DNA from: Dehalococcoidia bacterium
GTDB lineage: Bacteria > Chloroflexota > Dehalococcoidia > Tepidiformales > Tepidiformaceae
Assembly (NCBI GenBank): GCA_022827945.1
Contig: JAJEIT010000055.1
Span: forward strand, 17,075 to 81,074
Length of the DNA stretch: 64,000 nt
Reading direction: 5' to 3'
The position numbers were made by a program, and so were the translations under genes. Shown piece by piece: positions 25,154-28,116 of the stretch; position 1 is the first letter of the stretch, and each line of letters begins with the position of its first letter. The notes under the pieces are model-generated. The model had not been told where the DNA came from and searched no databases. It saw nothing but the letters and a program-made list of their open reading frames with translations.

Positions 25154-26002
25154 CTAGCCGCTGGCGGAACGCCGCCTGCGCGGCCGGCGCTGGCAGCGCG
25201 GACAGAAGTGCGTCCCCCGTCCCCCCACTACCGACCGCGCGATCTCCGTCCCGCACGTGTAGCACGGTTTCCCATCGCGCCGGAACACCTGCACGTACAT
25301 GTGCTGCCGCCCCGGGTCGCCCTGCGCGTCGACGTAGTCGCTGAAGCTCGCCCCGCGATTCTCGATGCCGCGTTCGAGCACCTCGCGACAGGCCACGTGC
25401 AGCCGCGCCACCGCCCCCCGCGACACCTCCCCCGCCGCCGTGTCCGGCCGGACGCGCGCCTGGAAGAGCGCCTCGTCCACGTAGATGTTCCCCAGCCCCG
25501 CGATCCGCCGCTGGTCGAGCAGCACCGCCTTCACCGGCGCCGTCCGCCCCGCCAGCAGCTTCCGCAGGAACGCCGCCGTGAACGCCTCGTCCAGCGGCTC
25601 CGGCCCCAGCTTCCCCACCACCTCCGCCGGGTCGTCCACGAGGTCCCAGGTACCGAATTTGCGCAGGTCGCTCCAGCGCAGCTCGTGCCCTCCGTCGAGC
25701 GCGATGCGTCCCCGCTCGTACTCGATCGCCGGGTCGCCCGCCTTCCGCCACACCAGCCGCCCCGTCATGCGCAGGTGCGTCACGAACGTACGCCCGTCGT
25801 CCATGCCGAACAGCAGATACTTCCCCCGCCGCCCCAGCGACACGAACCGCCGCCCCACCAGCCCCGCCCGCAGTCCGTCGATAGGGAAGTCCGTCAGCAG
25901 GTCGATCGTCCCCGGATCGACCTCCACCGCCGCCACCGTCCGCCCCACCACCAGTGGCTCCAGGTCGCGCCTGATCGTCTCGACTTCCGGCAGTTCCGGC
26001 AC
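25154..26002 (-). CDS. mutM: Formamidopyrimidine-DNA glycosylase
   Basis: VPELPEVETIRRDLEPLVVGRTV...RKFGTWDLV...GLGNIYVDEALF; zinc finger CYTCGTEI...FCPRCQ. Confidence 0.95.
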   Translation of the reverse strand: MPELPEVETIRRDLEPLVVGRTVAAVEVDPGTIDLLTDFPIDGLRAGLVGRRFVSLGRRGKYLLFGMDDGRTFVTHLRMTGRLVWRKAGDPAIEYERGRIALDGGHELRWSDLRKFGTWDLVDDPAEVVGKLGPEPLDEAFTAAFLRKLLAGRTAPVKAVLLDQRRIAGLGNIYVDEALFQARVRPDTAAGEVSRGAVARLHVACREVLERGIENRGASFSDYVDAQGDPGRQHMYVQVFRRDGKPCYTCGTEIARSVVGGRGTHFCPRCQRRPRRRRSASG

Positions 26003-26057
26003 GGCCCTCAGCCTACCCGCGCTCCGGCCCGGCGTCGCGGCGGCGTAAGATCGCCCC

Positions 26058-26711
26058 GTGATCACCCACCTCTCCGGAACTCTCACCCACACGGACGTCG
26101 GCGAGCTCAGCGTCGAGATCGACGTCTCCGGTGTCCGCTACGAGGTGCTCGTCCCCGCCTTCCTCTGGCCCGAGATCCAGGAGACCATCGACTCCGCCGG
26201 CGAAGGCGAGCCCGACCCCGCGATCGCCCTGCACGTCCTCTACCACGCCACCGCCAACGTCCCCGTGCCCCTCCTTGTCGGCTTCCTCCGCCGCCCCGAG
26301 CGCGACTTCTTCCGCAAGTTCACGACCGTCGAGGGGCTGGGCCCGACCAAGGCCGTCAAGGCCATGACCGTGTCCGTCAGCACCCTCGCCCGCGCCATCG
26401 AGCAGGAGGACCAGGCGGTGCTCACGCGCCTGCCCGGCATCGGTCCCCGCGTCGCCGGGAAGATCATCGCCACCCTCCGCGGCAAGGTCGTCGCCGAGGC
26501 CGCCCTCCAGGACGGCGGCCTCGACAGTCCCGTCGACCTCGACAGCCTCCGCCGCGACCGCGTCTCCCTGGACGCCGCCGAGGCGATCGCGGCGCTCGGC
26601 TACGCCCGCACGGAAGCCCGCCGCTGGGTCGACGAAGCCCTCACCGACGATCCCGACATCGCCACCGTCGAGGAGCTGACGCTGGCCGTGCTCCGCGCCC
26701 GCGGTGCCTGA
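26058..26711 (+). CDS. ruvA: Holliday junction DNA helicase RuvA
   Basis: LSGTLTHTDVGELSVEIDVSGVRYEVLVP...VEGLGPTKAVKAM...LTRLPGIGPRVAGKIIATLRGKV. Confidence 0.88.
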   Translation: MITHLSGTLTHTDVGELSVEIDVSGVRYEVLVPAFLWPEIQETIDSAGEGEPDPAIALHVLYHATANVPVPLLVGFLRRPERDFFRKFTTVEGLGPTKAVKAMTVSVSTLARAIEQEDQAVLTRLPGIGPRVAGKIIATLRGKVVAEAALQDGGLDSPVDLDSLRRDRVSLDAAEAIAALGYARTEARRWVDEALTDDPDIATVEELTLAVLRARGA

Positions 26712-26757: not shown

Positions 26758-27696
26758 ATGACGCAGCCCCCTGCCGACCCCGAGAGCTATCCCCCCGAGG
26801 AGCAGCCGGCGGAACCGGTTCCCGGGGCTCCCGCGCAGGCCCCTCGGAGGGCCGTTCGCCCTCCGATCTGGCCCTATTTCCTGACCCCGGTTGCGGTCCT
26901 CATCGGCGCCGCCGCCATCGTCGTCACAATCGTCCTGCTCGACGACGACCCGCCGCCCGCCGAGCCCATTGGCCCCGCTCTCGAGGCGATGGCCGAGGCG
27001 GTCGATTCCCTCGCCACGGCTGTCGATGACCTGGAGGCGGCCCCCCAGCCCGCCGCCCCGGCCGAGCCGGTTACGCTCCGCGGCACGCTCGAGGGCTACG
27101 CCGCTGCGCTCGGCCTCGACGTCGAGGGCTTCGCCGAGTGCCTCAGCGACACGTCGAAGCTGCAGGTCGTCGGCGACCAGCTCCAGCGAGGGCTCGACCT
27201 CGGCGTGAACGGCACGCCCGCCTTCTTCGTGAACAACAAATACATCTCGGGGGCACAGCCGTCTGTCGTCTTCACCGAGGTCATCGCCGCCGAACTCGCG
27301 GGCAGCCCCACCTCTCTCGACGAGTACTCCGACACCATCCGGGTGCTCGCCAACCGGGAACCGCCCGCCTTCGCCATCCTCGACCGGGCTCCAGACTTCA
27401 CGAACGCCGCCATCAAGGGCAGCCCCGACGCCGCCGTCGTCATCGTCGAGTTCAGCGATTTCCAGTGTCCCTTCTGCCTGCGCTGGTACCTCAACACGTT
27501 GCCTGAGATCGAGCCGCAGATCGGCGACGACGTGGCGCTCGTCTTCCTCCATTTCCCCATCACCCAGCTCCACCCCAACGCCCCCACCGTCCACGTCGCG
27601 GCCGAGTGCGCCGGGGAGCAGGGCAAGTTCTGGGAGATGCACGACCTCCTCTTCGAGCGCCAGGACGAGTGGTCGCGGCTTCCGAACCCCAACTAG
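26758..27696 (+). CDS. Membrane-anchored DsbA/thioredoxin-fold protein with the C-terminal half preceding the N-terminal half (apparent circular permutation)
   Basis: TM segment, then YAAALGLDVEGFAECL...GVNGTPAFFVNNKYISGAQP (normally C-terminal, cis-Pro region), then VVIVEFSDFQCPFCLRWY...QGKFWEMHDLLFERQDEW (normally N-terminal, CPFC at 27466-27477). Confidence 0.9.
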   Translation: MTQPPADPESYPPEEQPAEPVPGAPAQAPRRAVRPPIWPYFLTPVAVLIGAAAIVVTIVLLDDDPPPAEPIGPALEAMAEAVDSLATAVDDLEAAPQPAAPAEPVTLRGTLEGYAAALGLDVEGFAECLSDTSKLQVVGDQLQRGLDLGVNGTPAFFVNNKYISGAQPSVVFTEVIAAELAGSPTSLDEYSDTIRVLANREPPAFAILDRAPDFTNAAIKGSPDAAVVIVEFSDFQCPFCLRWYLNTLPEIEPQIGDDVALVFLHFPITQLHPNAPTVHVAAECAGEQGKFWEMHDLLFERQDEWSRLPNPN

Positions 27697-27702
27697 CGGC
27701 GG

Positions 27703-28116
27703 CTAGCGTCCCCGCTCCCCTTCCAGCCTCCCCAGGATGTGACGCACCACCCGACCGGTGCGGTCGTGCCCCGCGCTGCAGTGCACCAGCACCGGCTTCG
27801 GCAGCCGCCGGAACGACGCCCACGCGTCGTCGAGCTGCGCTCGCGTGAACGGTTCCGCCATCCCGTCGCGAACACCGTGGTGGGCGACCTCGAATCCCGA
27901 GGTGCGGTAGCGCGCCAGCAGCCCCTCCGGCAGCGCCGCTGCGTAGAGCGGCAACTGGTCGTCGCCCAGCAGGCAGATGACCGACCGCACCCCCGCCTCC
28001 CGGGTCCTGGCGACCCACGCCTCCACCGCGGCCAGCGGCACTGCCCCCTCCTCCCCCGGGACGTACCCGGGGCGCGGGCTCACGGCCAGCTCCCCCTCGA
28101 TGATCCAGCTCACCAC
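27703..28116 (-). CDS. Protein tyrosine/dual-specificity phosphatase-like
   Basis: VLVHCSAGHDRTGRVV signature HCxxGxxRT. Confidence 0.85.
   Translation of the reverse strand: MVSWIIEGELAVSPRPGYVPGEEGAVPLAAVEAWVARTREAGVRSVICLLGDDQLPLYAAALPEGLLARYRTSGFEVAHHGVRDGMAEPFTRAQLDDAWASFRRLPKPVLVHCSAGHDRTGRVVRHILGRLEGERGR

Follow-up and report, generated by a model that had tools for sequence, protein, structure and literature searches.

The locus raises the question of whether a DsbA-type domain whose two halves occur in swapped order is a naturally circularly permuted enzyme. The ORF lies at positions 26758–27696 (plus strand) of the window, i.e. the whole 64,000-nt stretch that was analysed (Dehalococcoidia bacterium, GCA_022827945.1, contig JAJEIT010000055.1), and all positions below are within it. 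Its coordinates and residue order were confirmed. The encoded protein of 312 aa consists of a transmembrane (TM) anchor, the half that includes the cis-proline (cis-Pro), a linker, and the half that includes the CPFC motif. The CPFC half is designated A and the cis-Pro half B, and one HMM was built for each. The features are as follows.

26758..27696, plus strand: whole ORF, membrane-anchored permuted DsbA-like protein, 312 aa (from the ORF, Pfam and the order in relatives)
26869..26940, plus strand: TM anchor, residues ~38–61 (read from the sequence)
27076..27306, plus strand: B half (cis-Pro half), residues 107–183, equivalent to the C-terminal part of DsbA in normal order
27139..27141, plus strand: Cys128, proposed structural-disulfide partner of Cys284 across the halves
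27217..27219, plus strand: Pro154, the cis-Pro of NGTP
27307..27375, plus strand: linker, residues 184–206, between the former C- and N-termini
27376..27684, plus strand: A half (CPFC half), residues 207–309, equivalent to the N-terminal part of DsbA in normal order
27466..27477, plus strand: CPFC active-site motif, residues 237–240
27607..27609, plus strand: Cys284, proposed partner of Cys128
26058..26711, plus strand: ruvA, the upstream neighbour (24 of the 33 Chloroflexota loci that carry the permuted gene have it upstream in the same orientation)

Layout of the ORF and family of its halves

The protein reads as an Arg-containing N-terminus, one TM helix, a linker, LRGTLEGYAAALGLD...NGTPAFFVNNKYISGAQP...EVIAAELA, a short linker, and GSPDAAVVIVEFSDFQCPFC...HFPITQLHPNA...CAGEQGKFWEMHDLLFERQDEWSRLPNPN followed by the stop codon. 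By the positive-inside rule, the Arg before and the Asp after the TM helix suggest that the N-terminus is inside and the domain outside. The linker between the halves had been put at about 40 aa in the original prediction; a linker is present, and its length is ~23 residues (184–206) between the recognisable halves, the value of 40 including the ~15 residues that precede the first core strand. The flanks had been said to contain no missing half, and no third half was found between the end of ruvA at 26711 and the convergent phosphatase gene that starts at 27703.

In Pfam, residues 105–173 match positions 119–187 of the 191-position DSBA profile, which is its C-terminal part, and residues 219–306 match positions 7–94 of the 165-position Thioredoxin_4 profile, which is its N-terminal part. 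Taken singly, both halves reach significance (9e-9 for the B half with DSBA and 3e-13 for the A half with Thioredoxin_4), and the whole protein gives 1.6e-18 with Thioredoxin_4 and 1e-13 with DSBA. NCBIfam NF041057 matches the protein in two separate stretches. The A half corresponds to positions 81–170 of the NCBIfam Rcas_1661 model (247 positions), and the B half of a related protein from Candidatus Collierbacteria (see below) to positions 177–246 of 247. Matches of the 312-aa protein among PDB sequences were of the DsbA type. The halves are therefore not from unrelated families, both being DsbA/Thioredoxin_4.

The CxxC and cis-Pro that characterise this family are present as CPFC and NGTP, and their retention, as originally predicted, extends to all permuted relatives aligned: C, C and P occur in 68 of 68 permuted rows. 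The usual order, CxxC half followed by cis-Pro half, is reversed; hence the protein is a permuted relative and not an ordinary DsbA/Thioredoxin_4 member. As expected of a natural permutant, each segment occurs once, the order is swapped, and homologs in normal order exist.

One in-frame TGA was seen inside the match in relatives from four genomes (G531, G547, G612 and G054). Selenocysteine is possible at this codon, since the NCBIfam model nearest to these proteins describes a (seleno)lipoprotein.

The cut lies between "..DEWSRL" and "..YAAALGLD", in a loop of the helical domain. The A-to-B junction in a canonical homolog (L040) is FWLYHDVLFERQKEWESIPRENIATILIQYSEDLGLDRDEFESCL. In the 312-aa protein, the C-terminus is FWEMHDLLFERQDEWSRLPNPN and the B half begins LRGTLEGYAAALGLDVEGFAECL, and comparison of these ends with the L040 junction places the cut in the helical-domain loop with almost nothing lost. 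When the profile was aligned with PDB sequences, its position 11 fell on residue 115 of E. coli DsbA, near the engineered Q100/T99 site of 1un2.

Occurrence and origins of the swapped order

Among 60 related genomes searched, long matches in the same order were found in 30 of the 36 from the Chloroflexota family of the host, single-contig genomes included. The 24 sampled genomes from other families of the class gave partial matches only, and no match to the permuted protein was found near ruvA in the sampled genomes of those families. Permuted proteins of the host family share 82–85% identity in close congeners and as little as 45% in other genera, and full-length members end at almost one position, after ..F..Q..W..L. 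The B-A order is shared by 32 distinct Chloroflexota sequences. Two more Chloroflexi MAGs with the permuted protein came from the named genome collection; the half-HMMs confirmed B-A in both and revealed A-B singles or A-B-A-B... tandems at the other loci.

Of 399 Chloroflexota genomes searched with a profile, 141 have a match at E≤1e-20, and outside the host family the best matches inspected are normal-order singles or tandems. The host genome itself, a 99-contig assembly, also encodes a normal-order paralog on contig C18. Two candidates were rejected: G689, considered as a permuted case outside the family, has the canonical order, and the long frames L009 and L027, considered as tandems extending upstream, represent upstream read-through with B-A domains only.

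A scan of named genomes identified the same TM-B-A order in a protein of Candidatus Collierbacteria (L059). In the class that holds Collierbacteria, taken here to be Microgenomatia, about 52 of 286 genomes have one continuous match across both halves. The order is permuted in all 30 loci inspected among these, and in two weaker ones (L186 and L187). The Collierbacteria genome also encodes a paralog in normal order, whose TM segment is similar. L187 (G073:C50) has another cut point, its C-terminus continuing into ..SLANLASQLGIK and its N-terminal half beginning later.

A search for orthologs with the same arrangement had been proposed in the original prediction; the swapped order is fixed in one Chloroflexota family and is found in a second phylum, in a distant group of very small bacteria. 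The swap behind a TM anchor, as first read from the ORF, is borne out by the ORF itself, Pfam, NF041057 and the 32 distinct sequences.

The permutation probably occurred more than once, although tree tests disagree on this point. The Chloroflexota permuted form is a single clade (100/99). In the careful tree (104 rows, B+A columns), the permuted forms of the Collierbacteria class fall into at least two groups, and permuted L186 groups with canonical L136 (100/93), a hairpin insertion being common to both. AU tests on this tree rejected one clade of all permuted forms (p-AU 0.002) and one clade of those from the Collierbacteria class (p-AU 0.016). The cut in L187 lies some residues further downstream. 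These results argue against a single permutation from which all permuted proteins derive and which reached both Chloroflexota and the Collierbacteria class through common descent or transfer. Such an origin would be consistent with the YSxxLQxxA...F linker pattern common to both groups and with the quick tree of 136 rows, in which one clade of all permuted forms is not rejected (p-AU 0.395), and is regarded as rather unlikely.

There is about an even chance that DsbA was permuted independently at least three times (in the Chloroflexota family, in the main Collierbacteria-class group, and among the types represented by L186 and L187), with every cut at or close to the loop of the helical domain, not far from the engineered E. 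coli site. The permuted TM-tethered enzyme stands beside a normal-order paralog in at least the host and Collierbacteria genomes, which would fit selection for a different orientation of the active site at the membrane.

Permutation may have proceeded through duplication of the domain, followed by loss of the two outermost halves, with tandem DsbA proteins as plausible intermediates. The tandems known from Myxococcota and Chloroflexota contain B-linker-A segments that align in register with the permuted protein; they differ in starting with A and ending with B, and comprise 2–8 complete domains, with the cysteine pair described below in some. Chloroflexota tandems with the pair exist and are plausible as intermediates. 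The Chloroflexota permuted form and the B1-A2 stretch of Caldilineaceae tandems are together in the quick tree (support 87), and the careful tree leaves this grouping undecided. Half-specific scores for an origin from Caldilineaceae tandems were largely matched by controls.

Single ORFs with 2 to 8 tandem canonical DsbA domains were observed in Myxococcota and Deltaproteobacteria (L062, also L034, L035, L041, L057 and others). L062 has eight such domains in a 1701-aa frame, and the Chloroflexota tandems have 2–3. In L112 (G022:C438) and L113 (G050:C66), a single frame carries a transmembrane region that resembles an NhaA-type antiporter and, after it, a canonical DsbA domain.

Predicted fold and the cysteine pair

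AlphaFold predicted a single compact domain for residues 100–312 (pLDDT 97.0, pTM 0.92) and gave similar values for Collierbacteria L059 (pLDDT 93.1, pTM 0.88), from input alignments that contained B-A stretches of tandem proteins; it might pack any two halves of this kind. Both models have 1un2, an engineered circular permutant of E. coli DsbA, as their top PDB match, and for the model of the 312-aa protein it is also the sole one at E≤0.001. The match covers 208 and 195 columns for the 312-aa protein and L059, respectively, essentially the whole domain, with TM to target of 0.61 and 0.64 and E of 8e-6 and 2e-5; the rmsd is high at 7.8 and 4.7 Å. Most of the next-best DsbA-type matches cover 85–130 columns, mainly one half. 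No significant match of the model was found in the viral structure library. The protein is thus predicted to adopt a thioredoxin fold with a helical insertion as one domain, with the fold of its unpermuted relatives, in agreement with the circular permutation proposed originally.

Positions equivalent to Cys128 and Cys284 were compared in 248 canonical domains: both are Cys in 71, neither in 177, and mixed cases number 0 (Fisher p 6e-64, computed treating domains as independent, with relatedness ignored). Both are Cys in 67 of 67 permuted domains. The all-or-none occurrence of the pair in normal-order relatives indicates that it is probably a disulfide joining the halves. Cys128-Cys284 would then be a structural disulfide, kept after the permutation and now stapling the new terminal segments. 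The pattern provides a check on the predicted single-domain fold that is independent of the model. The cysteine pair joining the halves and the occurrence of the swap elsewhere, probably more than once, are points beyond the original prediction.

The halves might instead not fold together in one chain, and be leftovers of a truncated tandem that pair between chains, in a domain-swapped dimer, or with another protein. Tandem DsbA proteins do hold the same B-linker-A stretch with B and A from different domains, and Foldseek and AlphaFold leave some uncertainty as to whether such a chain is a monomer or a swapped dimer. However, the linker and domain are modelled confidently as one chain, the best match of both models is a monomeric engineered permutant, every permuted protein scored has the cysteine pair that spans the halves, and no separate adjoining gene with complementary outer halves was found beside the permuted ORF. 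Pairing of this kind is therefore considered improbable.

In close congeners, dN/dS is 0.17–0.22 for the B half and 0.08–0.09 for the A half; both halves are under purifying selection. An assembly error or decaying pseudogene, to which the unusual order alone and the 99-contig host assembly might point, is refuted by the same order in many genomes, some of them single-contig, by dN/dS well below 1 in both halves and by the invariant active-site residues, and has a negligible probability. Fixation of B-A in 32 distinct Chloroflexota sequences excludes misassembly and chance, and orthologs of the same order in the family and in a second phylum rule out a local misassembly without read mapping.

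Known permutants and putative function

The 312-aa protein is very probably a natural circular permutant of a DsbA-fold domain, tethered on the outer side of the cytoplasmic membrane through an N-terminal TM helix. In this arrangement, the cis-Pro loop and the last strands and helix, i.e. the old C-terminal half, come first, followed by a short linker and the CPFC half. The new termini lie in the helical-domain loop, and the linker connects the former C- and N-termini.

PMC2395249, PMC2213659 and PMC3281007 describe permuted DsbA as an engineered protein. CPDSBA_Q100T99 (PDB 1un2) is the engineered E. coli DsbA permutant of Manjasetty et al. 2004 and Hennecke et al. 1999, as cited in PMC2213659 and PMC3281007. 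It resembles the natural protein in fold, direction of permutation and a cut in the helical domain. Unlike the latter, it is man-made and soluble, and lacks a TM anchor and a pair like Cys128/Cys284; the natural cut is some residues further along. Canonical Thioredoxin_4 or Rcas_1661-type proteins (NF041057; the host paralog on C18) share the family, CxxC and cis-Pro, and include TM-anchored or lipoprotein forms, but have the CxxC half first and then the cis-Pro half. DsbB/VKOR, a family that also serves in disulfide-bond formation, is described as having undergone a natural circular permutation, with gene duplication and deletion proposed as the route (PMC4555120). However, DsbB/VKOR is a four-helix membrane protein of unrelated fold and the usual partner of DsbA. 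Permutations that reorder thioredoxin-fold elements were noted by Qi and Grishin for the thioredoxin-like fold class (cited in PMC3091736). Those are at the level of the fold class, whereas here close homologs and a normal-order paralog in the same genome exist.

No natural permuted DsbA or thioredoxin was found in the searchable literature, most subscription papers being outside the search. The evidence supports a natural circular permutant of DsbA, the previous descriptions found being of the engineered E. coli protein only. DsbA is a classic model for engineered circular permutation, and this is a natural, lineage-fixed counterpart with a cut near the engineered site. Normal-order paralogs and tandem relatives make the route by duplication and truncation testable by sequence, and the proteins offer a natural experiment on the effect of chain order and tether position on a redox enzyme. 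Annotation pipelines would register them as just two partial domain matches.

The CPFC and cis-Pro would make a normal DsbA active site, and the protein is most likely a putative extracytoplasmic, membrane-tethered thiol-disulfide oxidoreductase, which may catalyse dithiol-disulfide exchange on exported proteins. The TM tether would leave from the helical domain and not from the first core strand, possibly reorienting the active site relative to the membrane, and this altered orientation may be the reason for retention of the permuted form.

No PF02600 or PF07884 match was found in the 95% complete host genome, so that a DsbA-like oxidase role is not backed by a DsbB or VKOR partner. The genome does encode a CcdA/DsbD_TM homolog. 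VKOR is infrequent both in the host family (6 of 37 over the cut-off) and among the genomes of the Collierbacteria class that have the permuted gene (7 of 20). In two of these genomes, which carry the permuted gene as well, VKOR adjoins a normal-order DsbA-type gene (G194:C15, 10751–11523, and G253:C42, 4426–5233). The permuted gene as VKOR partner was rejected given this location and the rarity of VKOR.

Upstream of the permuted gene, an fpg-like ORF (25154–26092, minus strand) and ruvA (from 26058, plus strand) share a 35-base overlap where their GTG starts lie (window positions 26058–26092), and the fpg start may have been placed too far upstream.
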